Source: Anaerolineae bacterium
GTDB taxonomy: Bacteria; Chloroflexota; Anaerolineae; Aggregatilineales; Ch27
Length of the DNA stretch: 64,000 nt
NCBI GenBank assembly: GCA_013178165.1
Contig: JABLXG010000017.1
Coordinates: 1-64,000, forward strand
Reading direction: 5' to 3'
This document shows positions 48,822-56,744 of the stretch, one piece after another. The number at the start of each line of letters is the position of its first letter. The first letter of the stretch is position 1. Below the pieces are notes generated by a model. It was given only the letters and a program-made list of their open reading frames with translations, did not search any database and was not told where the DNA came from. The translations under genes and the position numbers were made by a program.

Positions 48822-50837
48822 CTATGGCGCTGGAGCGAGGAAATAGCTGTCTGCGTCAGCCTCAGCCGTCCAGCCAATGTGACCGGTGGCGGCGCGTACC
48901 TTCCACCAGCCATACCCTTCCAAACAGACCAGGCCGTCCAGCAGGGTGACGCGCACACGATTGGCGATGCTGGCGGTCACCGGCGCGTTGCTGCCGGGAT
49001 CGCTGTGCAGGCGGAGGGGCAGGCCGTCGGGAGTATCCACGAGCGCCGTTGCGCCAACATGCAGGCGTGAAGCCAGCACACCAGGGCAGCGCCCCTCGCC
49101 GGGCGCGGTGATCAGCGGCTCCACAAAGTAGGCGTCCTGGCCCGATTCGGCGATCCAGCCGGTCAGGCCGTCGCTGAGGCGTTGAACCATGAACCAGGGG
49201 TAACCGTCTAGACAGATCGGCCCTTCGACCACGCGGAACTGGGTGTTGACCGGGAACTGGCCCAGTCGTACCGCTTCCAGGCCTGGCTCGGCGCGCACGT
49301 TGACCGGGCGCGGGTCATCATCGCTGACGATGCCGATCTGGCCGGTGGTCAGGCGGGATGGCAGCAACCCGGCGCAGGAAGCCAGCGTCACGGTGGCTAC
49401 TGATGTCAGCGTTGGGGTGGGCGGTGCTGTGACCCTGAGCGGGGCGGTTGGTGAAGCCACTGGCGTCTGTGATGGAGGCGGCGTCTGCGTGGGTGTGGTG
49501 GATGGCATGGCGCTGGCGGTAGCTGTCTGGGCGGCCTGGGACGTCGCCAGATCAACCACGACGGCGCGGGCGGTCGCCGTCAGGTGGCGCACCAGCCGGT
49601 GGAACGTAGCCAGGTCCAGCGCATCGGCGGTGGCGTAAACATCCGGAGACGGCGTCGGCGTTGCGGTTGGCGTGGCCGTCGCGGTTGAGGTCGGCGAAGG
49701 CGTGGCCGTCTGCTCGACAATATCGCTGTCGCCGGCGCTGGTTCCTGCCAGACCCACGATGGCAGCCATGGTTGGCGATCCTTCGGTGCCGAACAGTCCC
49801 ACGCCTCCGCCCAGCAGCAGGGCGGCGATCAGCAACAGGGCGACGGTCACGATGGCGGTCAGCGCGATCAGGCCGCGCCCACCGCCATCTCGCCGGGCTG
49901 CGGGTGCTGTCTGTTCTACCTCCTGGCCGGTGGGGAGGACGTTGCCTGCCGGGGATGGGGTAGGCGTGGTTGAGACCTTTGGCCATGGCACAGCGGCAAG
50001 TTCGCCGGTTGGCGTTGCTGGCACGGCAGCTTCAAGGGCCTCGCTCATGGCCTGTACAGAGGGGAAGCGCTCACCCGGCTCCTTGGCCAGAGCGCGGAGG
50101 ATGACCGTCTCTGCCGCTGGCGGGAGCGCCTCCAGTATAGTCCGGGGCGGGGGCGGCGCTTCGTAGATGTGCTTGTGCATGAAGCCGTAGGTGGTACCGG
50201 CGTCGAACGGCGGTACGCCGGTAACCATCTGGTAGAGCAGCACCCCCAGGGCGTATTGATCGGTGTATGGCCCGATCGGCTCGGCTTTCCATTGTTCGGG
50301 GGCCATGTAAGCGGGCGTCCCGACTGCCGCGCCGGTGCGGGTCAGGTGAGTGGCGCTCTGCAGGATCCTGGCGATGCCGAAATCGGTCAGGTACGGGTTG
50401 TCGGCTTCATCCAGCAGGATGTTGCCCGGTTTGAGGTCGCGGTGGATCACCCCTTTGGCATGGGCGTAAGCCAGCGCGGAGGCGATGCGGCTGAACATGT
50501 TGCGCGCGGCGGGCAGGGGCAACGGCCCCGCCGCCAGCCGTGTCTCCAACGTGCCTGCGCCGACATAGCGCATCACCAGGTATGCGCCAAAGTCTTCCTC
50601 ACCATAGTCGATCACAGGCAGGATGTGCGGGTGTTCCAGGCGGGCGATGATGCGCGCTTCCTGGTCGAAGCGGGCACGGAAGTCCGGTTCCTGTGAATAG
50701 GCGGCGCTGATCACCTTGATCGCTACCAGACGATCCATATTCTGCTGGTGGGCCAGGTAAACGATCGCCATGCCGCCCCGGCCCAGTTCCTGCAGAATCT
50801 CATAGGAGCGAAATACCCGCCCGATCAGCGCGCTCAT
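48822..50837 (-). CDS. Transmembrane Ser/Thr protein kinase with two SH3-like domains
   Basis: Residues 10-270 are a Hanks-type kinase: glycine loop GRGGMAIVY (19-27), K41, E60, HRDLKPGN (132-139) and DFG (152-154), with APEQ in the P+1 region, so it should be active. Residues 322-350 are a membrane segment, then a long Thr/Pro stalk. The external part has two bacterial SH3 domains (about 490-573 and 585-668) with conserved Cys, possibly binding cell-wall peptide. It is the PknB layout with SH3 in place of PASTA. Placed by M23 and PspC genes, it probably senses the wall. Confidence 0.9.
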   Translation of the reverse strand: MSALIGRVFRSYEILQELGRGGMAIVYLAHQQNMDRLVAIKVISAAYSQEPDFRARFDQEARIIARLEHPHILPVIDYGEEDFGAYLVMRYVGAGTLETRLAAGPLPLPAARNMFSRIASALAYAHAKGVIHRDLKPGNILLDEADNPYLTDFGIARILQSATHLTRTGAAVGTPAYMAPEQWKAEPIGPYTDQYALGVLLYQMVTGVPPFDAGTTYGFMHKHIYEAPPPPRTILEALPPAAETVILRALAKEPGERFPSVQAMSEALEAAVPATPTGELAAVPWPKVSTTPTPSPAGNVLPTGQEVEQTAPAARRDGGGRGLIALTAIVTVALLLIAALLLGGGVGLFGTEGSPTMAAIVGLAGTSAGDSDIVEQTATPSPTSTATATPTATPTPSPDVYATADALDLATFHRLVRHLTATARAVVVDLATSQAAQTATASAMPSTTPTQTPPPSQTPVASPTAPLRVTAPPTPTLTSVATVTLASCAGLLPSRLTTGQIGIVSDDDPRPVNVRAEPGLEAVRLGQFPVNTQFRVVEGPICLDGYPWFMVQRLSDGLTGWIAESGQDAYFVEPLITAPGEGRCPGVLASRLHVGATALVDTPDGLPLRLHSDPGSNAPVTASIANRVRVTLLDGLVCLEGYGWWKVRAATGHIGWTAEADADSYFLAPAP

Positions 50838-50970: not shown

Positions 50971-51037
50971 ATCTTTGTGTTATAGACAGGTATCTCTTGT
51001 CAGCAGTATTAGTTTTTGCTTCCAGAGGAGGAAGTCA

Positions 51038-51847
51038 ATGTTCAAGAAGTTTATGCCACTGGTAGTGCTGGCGTTGTTGCTGACGGCGGTGACCGGCGCC
51101 TGGGCCATCACCGGCGGCGAACCGGACGGCGAGCGGCATCCCTATGTGGGGCTGATCGTCTTCGATGTCAATGGCGTGCCCGCCTGGCGCTGCAGCGGGA
51201 CGTTGATCGCGCGCGATCTGGTGCTCACCGCCGGCCATTGCACCGCCGGCGCGACCGGGGCGCGGGTGTGGTTCGGTAGCGACCTGACGGCTAATCCGGA
51301 ATATCCCTACGGCGGCGACACGTCATATGAGGGCGTTCCGATTCAGAATCCGATCTACGGCCTCAGCTTCCCCAACACCGGCGATGTCGGCCTGGTACGC
51401 CTGACCGAGCAGATCAAGCATAAGGACTTCCCCGGCACGGCCACGATTGCGCCGCTGGGCTATCTCGACGGCTTTGCCACCCGGCGCGGCCAGCAGGATA
51501 CCCAGTTCCGGGCGGTGGGTTATGGCCGCCAGGCGGTGGTGCCTGAGCCGCAAAGTGTGCGGGTGCGCTACACTACGCTGTCGCGGCTGGTCAACCTGCG
51601 CAACGCTCTGACCGATGGCTACAACCTGCAACTCGGTGAGGATGCGGGCGGCGGCAACAACTATGGCGGTACCTGTTTTGGCGATTCCGGCGGCCCGATC
51701 TTCCACCCCGAAGACAGTAACCAGATCGTGGCGGTGGTATCGTTCGGGTTAAATTCGAATTGTGTTGGTGTGGGCTTCCATTACCGCGTGGACACCCAGG
51801 CAGCCTACGATTTCGTGATGCCGTATCTCAACAGCCGCGGGCGCTAA
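51038..51847 (+). CDS. Secreted trypsin-fold serine protease
   Basis: A 269-residue S1-family protein with signal peptide (1-23) and the mature start ITGGEPDGERHPYVG. The triad is H67 (LTAGHC), D116 (TGDVGLVRL) and S217 (FGDSGGP). The residue matching Asp189 of trypsin is G211, so cleavage after Lys/Arg is not expected. The mature N-terminus begins right after the signal peptide, so there seems to be no activation peptide. GAGGAGG precedes the ATG. It is followed by a strong hairpin. Confidence 0.9.
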   Translation: MFKKFMPLVVLALLLTAVTGAWAITGGEPDGERHPYVGLIVFDVNGVPAWRCSGTLIARDLVLTAGHCTAGATGARVWFGSDLTANPEYPYGGDTSYEGVPIQNPIYGLSFPNTGDVGLVRLTEQIKHKDFPGTATIAPLGYLDGFATRRGQQDTQFRAVGYGRQAVVPEPQSVRVRYTTLSRLVNLRNALTDGYNLQLGEDAGGGNNYGGTCFGDSGGPIFHPEDSNQIVAVVSFGLNSNCVGVGFHYRVDTQAAYDFVMPYLNSRGR

Positions 51848-53973: not shown

Positions 53974-54381
53974 TCAGCGCAGGCGGGTGGGCGGCAGCAG
54001 CCCGCGCTCCTGCAGCCATGTCTCCGGCGGGCCTTCCCAGCCGAAGCGCTTGAAATCGACGCGCCCTTCCAGGTCGAACTGCACGCCTTCCGCTTCCAGG
54101 CGGCGGCGCTGTTCCTCCCGCGCACCGGGGAAGGGCAGGTTGCTGATCGTGCCCTGGCTGTTGATCACGCGATGCCAGGGGATGCCGCTGCCGACGGAGA
54201 GGCGCATGGCTGTGCCCACCCAGCGGGCGCGAACGTGGTTGTAGCGCAGCGGGTCGTAGCCAGGCGGCGCGGGGATCATGCTGGCGATCTGGCCGTAGCT
54301 GCTGACCCTGCCATACGGGATCAGGCGCACGATCTGCCAGACGAGGGGGTTGAAGGCATCAGGATCGGGTGGAGTGAACAT
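53974..54381 (-). CDS. Alkyltransferase-like (ATL) DNA-binding protein
   Basis: A 135-residue relative of O6-methylguanine-DNA methyltransferase. The fold markers VWQIVRLIPYGRVSSYGQIA are present, but the active-site PCHR is PWHR (W69 in place of Cys), which defines ATL proteins. These bind O6-alkylguanine in DNA and pass it to nucleotide-excision repair without removing the alkyl group. The C-terminus (from about 100) is extended and charged. Confidence 0.88.
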   Translation of the reverse strand: MFTPPDPDAFNPLVWQIVRLIPYGRVSSYGQIASMIPAPPGYDPLRYNHVRARWVGTAMRLSVGSGIPWHRVINSQGTISNLPFPGAREEQRRRLEAEGVQFDLEGRVDFKRFGWEGPPETWLQERGLLPPTRLR

Positions 54382-54406: not shown

Positions 54407-54817
54407 CTACGGTGTCGCAGCCCAGTTCATGTGCATCAGGCGCAGTGGCGCGACGATGTCCTCGATCTGATCATATTCGATGATCGCGGCAGCGATCCCG
54501 CGCGTGGTGTCCTTGATCGGTATGCCGCGCTGCACCATCACGATCACGCGCTTGCCAAGGGCGTAAGCCATCCCGGCCTCGTAAGCGCGACCGGTGGGTT
54601 TCTCCGTCAGGTCGATCAGCAGCGCGTCGCAGGCGGCGATCTCGGCCAGCGTGCGGGCCATCAATGCGCGCGGGTCGTCAAAGATGTGCGCCCAGCCCTC
54701 TATATCGCGGACAAAGCAGAAAGCTTCCCAGCCAGCCTGGGCGGCCAGTTCACACAGGCGCTCAATCTCGGCGCGGTTGTCCGTCCCCTTGTAGGTGGCG
54801 GTGATGTACAGGTGCAT
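54407..54817 (-). CDS. Nucleoside 2-deoxyribosyltransferase-like protein
   Basis: A 136-residue protein: MHLYITATYKG opening, DALLIDLTEKPTGRAYEAGMAYALGKRVIVMVQ centre. This matches the nucleoside deoxyribosyltransferase/DNPH1 fold, with the catalytic-type Glu in YEAGMA. Members break or swap N-glycosidic bonds of deoxynucleotides. The ATG at 54817 is used. It sits next to the restriction-modification pair but has host-like GC content, so it is probably not part of it. Confidence 0.7.
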   Translation of the reverse strand: MHLYITATYKGTDNRAEIERLCELAAQAGWEAFCFVRDIEGWAHIFDDPRALMARTLAEIAACDALLIDLTEKPTGRAYEAGMAYALGKRVIVMVQRGIPIKDTTRGIAAAIIEYDQIEDIVAPLRLMHMNWAATP

Positions 54818-54852
54818 GGGAAGGCTCGAAACTGGACATTGCCAGCCGACTG

Positions 54853-55755
54853 TCAATATCTTCTGATCCAGTCTAGGTTTCTACCAACAAGCAGTTCAGT
54901 GAGCCTGGCATGATGGGTGGTCTTCATTGCAATAGCTTCAATGTCGAAATTGTGTTGCTTGGCCATCTCTCTTACTTCTTCAACATTGTCATAAGTCATC
55001 AGAAAATCACCGCGAGTTTGTGATACGAGTCGGAACAGCTCTGCGTGGTCTAACTCAGAAAAGGTGTACAGGCGACTTCCAGGTTTCTTGCCTGCTGCAG
55101 TGTAGGGCGGATCAATAAAGTAGACGACATCGCTGCGTTCTGCGGTGTCCTGTATGACTTTGAGACCATCACCATGGATAAAGTGAATGCGATCCCTGAT
55201 TCCCGCAATATCCAGTATGCGCTTGCTCAGTGTGTTCGGATACCATCGAGACTTGATTCCTTTTCCATTTTCCCCGTGCTTGACCCGCCCGGCTCCTTCT
55301 GCAAGAATGCCTCCTCTATTGACGCGGTTCTTCACAATAGTCTGAAAAGCGAGTTCGCGCTCAGAAGCCGGTTCTTTAGAAAGAAGGCTGTCAACGGTTT
55401 CGGAGGTAAGTCTGAAACTCAGGATTCTGTTTGCCAACCACTCTCCTTGGTTATGAGTCAGAATAGTATTCCACACACTCGCGACCTGGTCATCTAGCTC
55501 AACCAGCGTCACATGCCAGGCGAGTTTCTCGAACGCAACGCTGAGTCCGACAATTGCCCCTCCTGCGAAGGGTTCAATGAATTCGACCCTTCTGTTTTCC
55601 GGTAGACTGCCCAGCCAACGGAACACGCGAGGTACCAGCCACGTTTTCCCACCAGGATATCTGAAGGGACTACGCTGTTTTACCGAAGCGACATTGACTA
55701 TCCTATGGGTGTCTTCCTGCCCGGCGGGCATTAGTGGTAGTTCCAGCTGTATCAT
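54853..55755 (-). CDS. D12-class (Dam-like) DNA adenine N6-methyltransferase
   Basis: A 300-residue methyltransferase. FRYPGGK (31-37) and EPFAGGAIVG (61-70) form the SAM site, and DPPY (215-218) is the catalytic motif of N6-adenine methylases in the alpha/Dam arrangement. Base composition is clearly lower in GC than the neighbours, so the gene was probably acquired. It lies 13 bp downstream of a NotI-family endonuclease gene and should protect host DNA at its site. Confidence 0.88.
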   Translation of the reverse strand: MIQLELPLMPAGQEDTHRIVNVASVKQRSPFRYPGGKTWLVPRVFRWLGSLPENRRVEFIEPFAGGAIVGLSVAFEKLAWHVTLVELDDQVASVWNTILTHNQGEWLANRILSFRLTSETVDSLLSKEPASERELAFQTIVKNRVNRGGILAEGAGRVKHGENGKGIKSRWYPNTLSKRILDIAGIRDRIHFIHGDGLKVIQDTAERSDVVYFIDPPYTAAGKKPGSRLYTFSELDHAELFRLVSQTRGDFLMTYDNVEEVREMAKQHNFDIEAIAMKTTHHARLTELLVGRNLDWIRRY

Positions 55756-55768
55756 TGGATTGCCTGTT

Positions 55769-56644
55769 TCACAGTAAGTCAGATAAGGTCAGGTCGCTCA
55801 GTTCAGCGTCCCTGTTTTCAAGCTTTTGCTCAAGCTTCTCCTGCAATGCATCTACAAACTCATCAAGTGAGCCTGGCTCAGCGGTTATGATCTGGTCAAT
55901 GGCCGGCTTAAACATGGTGTAGACTGTGCGCTTCAGCCGCAGTTGGTAAACGTTGGTCTGCTCATCCAACTCCAGATCATAGATCAGCCAGGCGATATCG
56001 GCCTGTTCACATTCAACTTCCTGCAGACTCGGCAAAGTATCGAAGAATCCCGAATGGATTGCGACTGCCTGCTTTTTCCTCCAGCTCTTCAGAATTCCAC
56101 CTTTGTAGAGTAGCTGGGGGACCAGTCTCTTTCGAGATGAAGAGAGATAGTCGGGACGTGGATAGTTTCTCTGGGTAGACCAGTCCATATTCTGATGTTT
56201 TTCGGGATTTTCCATATACTTCTGGAAGGGGCGTCGAATGTTGCCTGATATATACACAGCTTGGACTTCCAGTGAACCGAAGTCGACAACACGCCCGTTC
56301 TCATAGGCTACAAGGACGATATCGATATTACCTGCTGATTTTCCATACTTGTCGTTGAGGCGTACTTCTGTTAGGGATGTCCAACTGACTGACGGTTGGA
56401 AGAAAAACTTCGCTGCATCTATCGTTATGAGCCAATCCTGCCGAAATCTGATTGGGCAGGTGATAGCAATTCCAGAGTCTTCAAAAATGCTGCAGACGCC
56501 TAGTGGATCATCTGCTTTGTCTTTTGTGCAGTTAGGTACATGATTGTTGTAAGGGCACAAACGGTGCTCCCGATGTTGCTTTGCCCTTTGCGACTGGTTG
56601 CTGGTGGGGAATCCGAATACCTCAGCTAATGGATGATTGGACAT
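55769..56644 (-). CDS. NotI-family restriction endonuclease
   Basis: A 291-residue protein with the layout of NotI: N-terminal AEVFGFP, then four Cys (C30, C39, C51, C63) matching the iron-binding Cys4 site, in CPYNNHVPNC and GVCSIF. The nuclease core shows NIDIVLV (D108) and LEVQAVY (E126, Q128), in line with a PD-(D/E)xK variant using E-x-Q. The GC content is low compared with flanking genes. Its gene precedes an adenine methylase, giving a type II restriction-modification unit. The assignment rests on motif order, not full alignment. Confidence 0.75.
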   Translation of the reverse strand: MSNHPLAEVFGFPTSNQSQRAKQHREHRLCPYNNHVPNCTKDKADDPLGVCSIFEDSGIAITCPIRFRQDWLITIDAAKFFFQPSVSWTSLTEVRLNDKYGKSAGNIDIVLVAYENGRVVDFGSLEVQAVYISGNIRRPFQKYMENPEKHQNMDWSTQRNYPRPDYLSSSRKRLVPQLLYKGGILKSWRKKQAVAIHSGFFDTLPSLQEVECEQADIAWLIYDLELDEQTNVYQLRLKRTVYTMFKPAIDQIITAEPGSLDEFVDALQEKLEQKLENRDAELSDLTLSDLL

Positions 56645-56744
56645 TGGTATTTCAGCCTAGCACGGATCTCCTGTTCAGGTTCTATGATGTTATTATATCA
56701 GTATGTTTGTATTTGCCCATTTGTTCTACACAGGGGTTTGACCC

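Follow-up and report, generated by a model that had tools for sequence, protein, structure and literature searches.

Our analysis of the window (a stretch of 64,000 nucleotides from an Anaerolineae bacterium, contig JABLXG010000017.1) points, on balance, to a horizontally gained Type II restriction–modification (R-M) operon whose methyltransferase (M) carries a β-clamp-type motif on its N-terminal tail, most likely binds the sliding clamp DnaN, and would re-methylate the daughter strands. The partner of M is a NotI-family restriction endonuclease (R). An earlier note on this DNA had already paired the two genes, at the places where we find them; the new point is the clamp-type motif on M, which was absent from that note. 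The features of the operon are collected in Table 1.

Table 1. Features of the R-M operon (positions are those of the window; residue numbers are those of the encoded proteins).
Feature	Position	Strand	Basis
AT-richer insert holding R and M	54820..56744		GC about 0.49; between nucleoside-deoxyribosyltransferase-like gene and thiolase
M gene, alpha-class (D12/Dam-fold) DNA methyltransferase, 300 aa	54853..55755	-	Pfam D12; M.CbeI relationship
M motif IV DPPY, residues 215-218	55102..55113	-	invariant in 87 sequences
M motif I region EPFAGG (AdoMet binding)	55558..55575	-	conservation in 87 sequences
Predicted β-clamp-binding motif QLELPL, M residues 3-8, disordered N-terminal tail	55732..55749	-	published motif form; family enrichment
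R gene, NotI-family (PF12183) restriction endonuclease, 291 aa	55769..56644	-	Pfam, AF2 model, Foldseek
Catalytic core of R, D108...E126-x-Q128	56261..56323	-	conservation; NotI alignment
Cys4 metal-site region of R (C30, C39, C51, C63)	56456..56557	-	conservation; weak NotI alignment (E = 0.13)
Possible sigma-70-type promoter of the R-M operon, TGGGCA-16-TATAAT, TG before -10	56692..56719	-	10/12 matches

The R ORF is intact, and the view that it encodes a NotI relative, put forward in the earlier note, was borne out. The Pfam NotI profile matched R with E = 1.8e-59 and 201 bits (curated cut-off 22). An AlphaFold2 (AF2) model of the protein (mean pLDDT 93.9), compared with the PDB by Foldseek, returned NotI chains (3c25/3bvq) as matches 1–4 (best E = 6.5e-11, TMq 0.73) and, beyond these chains, no match under E = 0.1. 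Searched alone against PDB sequences, the R protein gave no match, and the R family profile reached the NotI chain only weakly (E = 0.13). Therefore, the link from R to NotI rests on Pfam and the fold.

The four cysteines and the residues D108, E126 and Q128 were located as the note had claimed. Across 97 R relatives, C30, C51 and C63 are invariant and C39 is at least 90% conserved; D108 and Q128 are likewise invariant, with E126 at least 90% conserved. In the weak profile alignment (E = 0.13), the Cys4 region falls on the CPF..SC.K..GVC..CP segment of NotI and the LEVQ of R on the LEIQ of the NotI chain (residues 182/184). NotI itself has a Cys4 iron site, and its catalytic lysine is replaced by Q (PMC4081073). 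By its profile, its modelled fold, its Cys4 site with predicted metal binding and its PD...E-x-Q core, R is a NotI-family nuclease. The fold, the Cys4 site and the D...E-x-Q core are common to R and NotI (PDB 3bvq, 3c25; PF12183), yet the two proteins are only about 13% identical, and R has 291 residues whereas NotI has 383. A literature search on PF12183 found no paper. To our knowledge, no R or M enzyme of this clade has been assayed.

The adjoining ORF, M, is also intact and belongs to the D12 class, as had been proposed (Pfam D12, E = 4.7e-10; 40 bits, cut-off 22). Motif I and DPPY are conserved in 87 M sequences, with E61, F63 and G65 of motif I invariant and P62 and G66 at least 90% conserved. 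The AlphaFold2 model of M (pLDDT 92.4) had M.CbeI (7m6b) as its top PDB match by Foldseek (E = 4.6e-17), and the M family profile gave 6.5e-26 for M.CbeI, 1.1e-10 for DpnM and near 1e-6 for Dam. The GATC-specific m6A enzymes DpnM, E. coli Dam and T4 Dam share the D12 fold with M, but the profile scores of DpnM and Dam are 1e-10 and weaker, compared with 6.5e-26 for M.CbeI. M.CbeI is thus the closest solved relative of M, yet the identity is about 21%; CbeI has been described as an isoschizomer of HaeIII (GG/CC), whereas the clamp-type N-terminal tail is a feature of M. The PADLOC profile PD-Lambda-5_B, for the B protein of PD-lambda-5, also matched M (5.5e-44). An identity with that system was rejected: only M matches, as the B component, whereas its partner here is a NotI-family nuclease that has no PD-Lambda-5 profile match and matches REase_II instead.

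Which base would M methylate, and at which site? The earlier note reasoned that, for a cognate pair, A must be part of the site, which hence cannot be GCGGCCGC. Neither step is supported. M.CbeI, annotated as a D12 N6-adenine enzyme, makes N4-methylcytosine in GGCC; it and DmtB are alpha-class m4C methylases of GGCC that share the D12 family and the DPPY motif with M (PMC3425538). Furthermore, C5-cytosine methylases adjoin more distantly related NotI-family nucleases, namely on plasmids of Sedimenticola and Pantoea and in a phage of Pseudomonas. The chain from D12 through adenine to the exclusion of GCGGCCGC fails for these two reasons, since D12 membership leaves the methylated base unfixed, and "D12 adenine methylase" names must not serve to exclude cytosine-only sites.

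By family and closest relative, M would produce either m6A or m4C. Adenine is the base methylated by most characterised D12 enzymes, and this, together with the Pfam D12 match, the RefSeq "DNA adenine methylase" names and the Dam-like fold of M, would make M an N6-adenine methylase with a site that contains A and is not GCGGCCGC. On the other hand, the closest solved relative makes m4C with the same family and the same DPPY motif, and cytosine methylases partner the distant nucleases, so that we consider the chances of this reading to be evenly balanced. More tentatively, M could make N4-methylcytosine in a GGCC-centred site while R keeps a NotI/EagI-like specificity (GCGGCCGC or CGGCCG). The relationship with M.CbeI suggests this, but at an identity of only about 21%. 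CGGCCG was also the most depleted palindrome in sampled carriers compared with non-carriers, but the depletion is a lineage effect: same-genus pairs gave much the same ratios (788/3031 in G000 vs. 663/2878 in G305; 203/6096 in G146 vs. 232/7652 in G270). Because the depletion is common to same-genus non-carriers, CGGCCG avoidance is uninformative on the site of R, and site avoidance was rejected as a route to the recognition site; an earlier pass on mixed loci was confounded by taxonomy. The scarcity of CGGCCG relative to GCCGGC is lineage-wide and independent of the R-M pair in the whole genomes compared (G000, G305, G146, G270 and G222), with counts of 102 and 4280, respectively, in G222. 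Methylation of either base would be compatible with clamp binding by M.

R lies upstream of M on the minus strand, with a gap of 13 bp. The GC content is 0.46–0.52 across the pair vs. 0.60–0.70 around it, in agreement with the low base composition reported earlier, and the recent gain that had been proposed on that ground is now joined by an empty site. In G305, the one same-genus genome used for this comparison, the distance between the flanking genes (89% and 92% identical) is 136 bp, compared with 1,927 bp here. Since the pair is missing between these neighbours in G305, it is a lineage-specific insert, most simply explained by recent gain. Neither a convincing target duplication nor a mobile-element end was found around the pair; a flanking 9-bp direct repeat, TGGACATTG, was rejected as a target duplication, as it is within chance for 2 kb. 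The promoter candidate in Table 1 is weak, the region having about as many such sites as its shuffles.

Several neighbouring genes were also read. The nucleoside 2-deoxyribosyltransferase-family gene downstream of M (54407–54817, minus strand) is a host gene outside the insert, because it has high GC and is conserved beside the thiolase in the same-genus genome. At 53974–54381 (minus strand) lies a gene for an MGMT DNA-binding-domain protein with PWHRV in place of the PCHRV of alkyltransferases; from this sequence, the protein is probably an alkyltransferase-like (ATL) repair protein and not an active MGMT. Translation alone was used to read a serine/threonine protein kinase-like gene with a C-terminal repeat region (48822–50837, minus strand) and the adjoining ORF for a trypsin-like protease (50975–51847, plus strand).

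Within the class, a PF12183 gene was present in 63 of 396 genomes. A scan of 84,980 species genomes gave at least 573 confirmed R relatives; among the matches listed, the hosts include Chloroflexota, Cyanobacteriota, Acidobacteriota, Planctomycetota, Chlorobiota, Bacteroidota and Pseudomonadota. In the best 80 of these at least 573 loci, M lies directly downstream of R in 77, the exceptions being two contig ends (L071 and L095) and one locus with a different methylase (L103). Furthermore, the pairwise distances of R and M are correlated (r = 0.60, n = 86), a value that none of 2000 permutations reached. R and M are thus cognate by association, through constant adjacency and co-varying distances, where the note had left this as a condition. 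The R-M pair is of an already known and widespread kind, since RefSeq names a cultured example: the Thermus brockianus plasmid pTbrSNM4-1c has a "NotI family restriction endonuclease" next to a "DNA adenine methylase". Its R is 61.5% identical to ours and the gene order is the same, but in its M, position 1 of the clamp-type motif is degenerate (EVPLF). Oscillatoria sp. PCC 10802 is another cultured carrier of the pair.

Could the tail of M serve as a tether to the replication clamp? Ahead of the conserved NVASVPQRSPFRYPGGKTW block, M has an N-terminal stretch of ~20 residues that is poorly ordered in the AF2 model (mean pLDDT about 54 for residues 1–10 and 74 for residues 11–20). The β-clamp-binding motif takes the forms Q-phi-x-[L/M][F/L] and Q-phi-x-[L/M]-x-[F/L] (PMC11139829), and QLELPL fits the second of them. 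Because this disordered N-terminus carries a motif of the β-clamp type, M most likely binds DnaN behind the fork, a prediction made from the short motif.

To place the motif in its family, we counted it in 77 non-redundant M homologues, taken from loci with a high-scoring R, and in shuffled controls. The published canonical form was found in 20 of the 77 homologues (shuffle mean 0.9, maximum 4). A first relaxed pattern was found in 50 (shuffle mean 2.2, maximum 7) and a wider one in 60 (shuffle mean 4.8, maximum 14), but the canonical count is the safer figure because we broadened the patterns with the sequences already in view. Among 40 other DNA methylases of the class, none had the canonical form and one had a relaxed form, and the motif occurred at 1 of 18 other D12 loci; unlike M, the enzymes at the other 17 lack a clamp-type tail. 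The consensus among motif carriers is QLSLF followed by E/D, with the Q at position 1 fixed by the search pattern itself; position 2 is mostly L (Q, S or M in some clades), position 3 is often S, position 4 is L or F, position 5 is mostly F, and the residues that follow are often E/D. Clamp motifs already known have acidic flanks too, and in Hda the motif likewise lies in a disordered N-terminus (PMC11139829).

In having a short motif in a disordered tail, M resembles the bacterial clamp clients Hda, where the tail is N-terminal, and Pol V (PMC11139829, PMC9690074). It also resembles DNMT1 on PCNA, where methylation is coupled to the clamp (PMC9690074). The bacterial part of the partner table examined in PMC9690074 contains no DNA methyltransferases, PMC11139829 uses neither the word methyltransferase nor the word methylase, and a literature search, with subscription journals mostly outside its coverage, brought up no bacterial DNA methyltransferase reported to bind the clamp. 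At one further locus (L223), a different D12-type methylase with a YQGSK core has a clamp-like QLAMF near its N-terminus, and from this sequence, clamp tethering may extend beyond NotI systems.

The motif might instead have nothing to do with replication. The operon would then be an ordinary cognate NotI-family pair in which the N-terminal motif serves R docking, dimerisation, folding, solubility or some other role. Such a pair works on paper without the motif, and the relaxed motif is absent from 17 of the 77 homologues. The Planctomycetota M proteins of L049, L053, L069 and L101 reach the core after only about 6 residues and have no clamp-type motif, and an M copy from an archaeal MAG (L084) also lacks it, as do distant relatives. 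Since it is absent from these 17, several Planctomycetota among them, and from the archaeal-MAG copy, the motif is not essential in every host. However, the published clamp pattern, the acidic flank and the disordered tail are all matched, and the distance of the motif from the start codon varies among the homologues, which argues against the ordinary pair. A coding constraint from R is excluded here because the motif codons in the window do not overlap R.

A further argument against an ordinary pair is that an unrelated type of methylase, encoded beside nucleases of this clade, also has the motif. The case is a sub-clade of R (L014, L016, L027 and L103; a single nested group in a quick R tree, support 84) in which the D12 enzyme is replaced by a methylase of ~670 aa that has CxxC pairs and matches of the PF01555 and DUF1156-like kinds; the R proteins of L014 and L103 are identical. 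At these four loci and at L030, a large Zn-ribbon-like N6_N4/DUF1156-type methylase stands beside nearly the same NotI-family nuclease, and this, judged by domain matches, is a methylase swap in one sub-clade. In the five N-termini of swapped methylases that were read, QLSLPF was present in three (L014, L016 and L030) and QLRIPY in L334, and no motif was visible in L027. The large type also adjoins members of a distant NotI subfamily, where some of these methylases have similar motifs, such as QLYLF at L336 and QLALY at L338, and others have none. Because two unrelated scaffolds serve the same nuclease, the motif would have a shared function and not a folding role in one enzyme. Taken as a whole, we consider an ordinary pair unlikely. 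A decaying or chance pair, with R inactive and M retained as an orphan, is very improbable: in-frame stops do break R beside a whole M at L010 and L025, where the nuclease seems to be the first to decay, but here the ORFs are intact, all catalytic residues are present, and R and M co-evolve.

The reading that we prefer, a clamp-tethered M, would work as follows. R would cut a G+C-rich palindrome wherever the host mark is missing; M, encoded downstream, would mark the same site. The tail of M would hold the DnaN clamp left behind the fork, and M would re-methylate the rare sites on the daughter strands as they are made, just behind the fork. Such rare sites would be hard to reach by diffusion, and tethering to the clamp would raise the local concentration of M where protection is needed. 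M on DnaN would then be a prokaryotic counterpart of DNMT1 on PCNA.

Beyond this operon, the widespread NotI-family nucleases are of practical interest, as the cutting site could give a useful rare cutter. We lean slightly towards the existence of a class of R-M systems with clamp-tethered modification enzymes, in which the N-terminal motif was arrived at, or kept, on two unrelated scaffolds, self-marking is coupled to the replisome, and the marking may be poorer on DNA copied by phages that bring their own replication machinery. Should the motif indeed bind the clamp, the operon would couple the self-protection of a bacterial restriction system to the replication fork, and it would provide a mechanism by which R-M hosts spare their own new DNA and by which DNA copied by the replisome is favoured as self.
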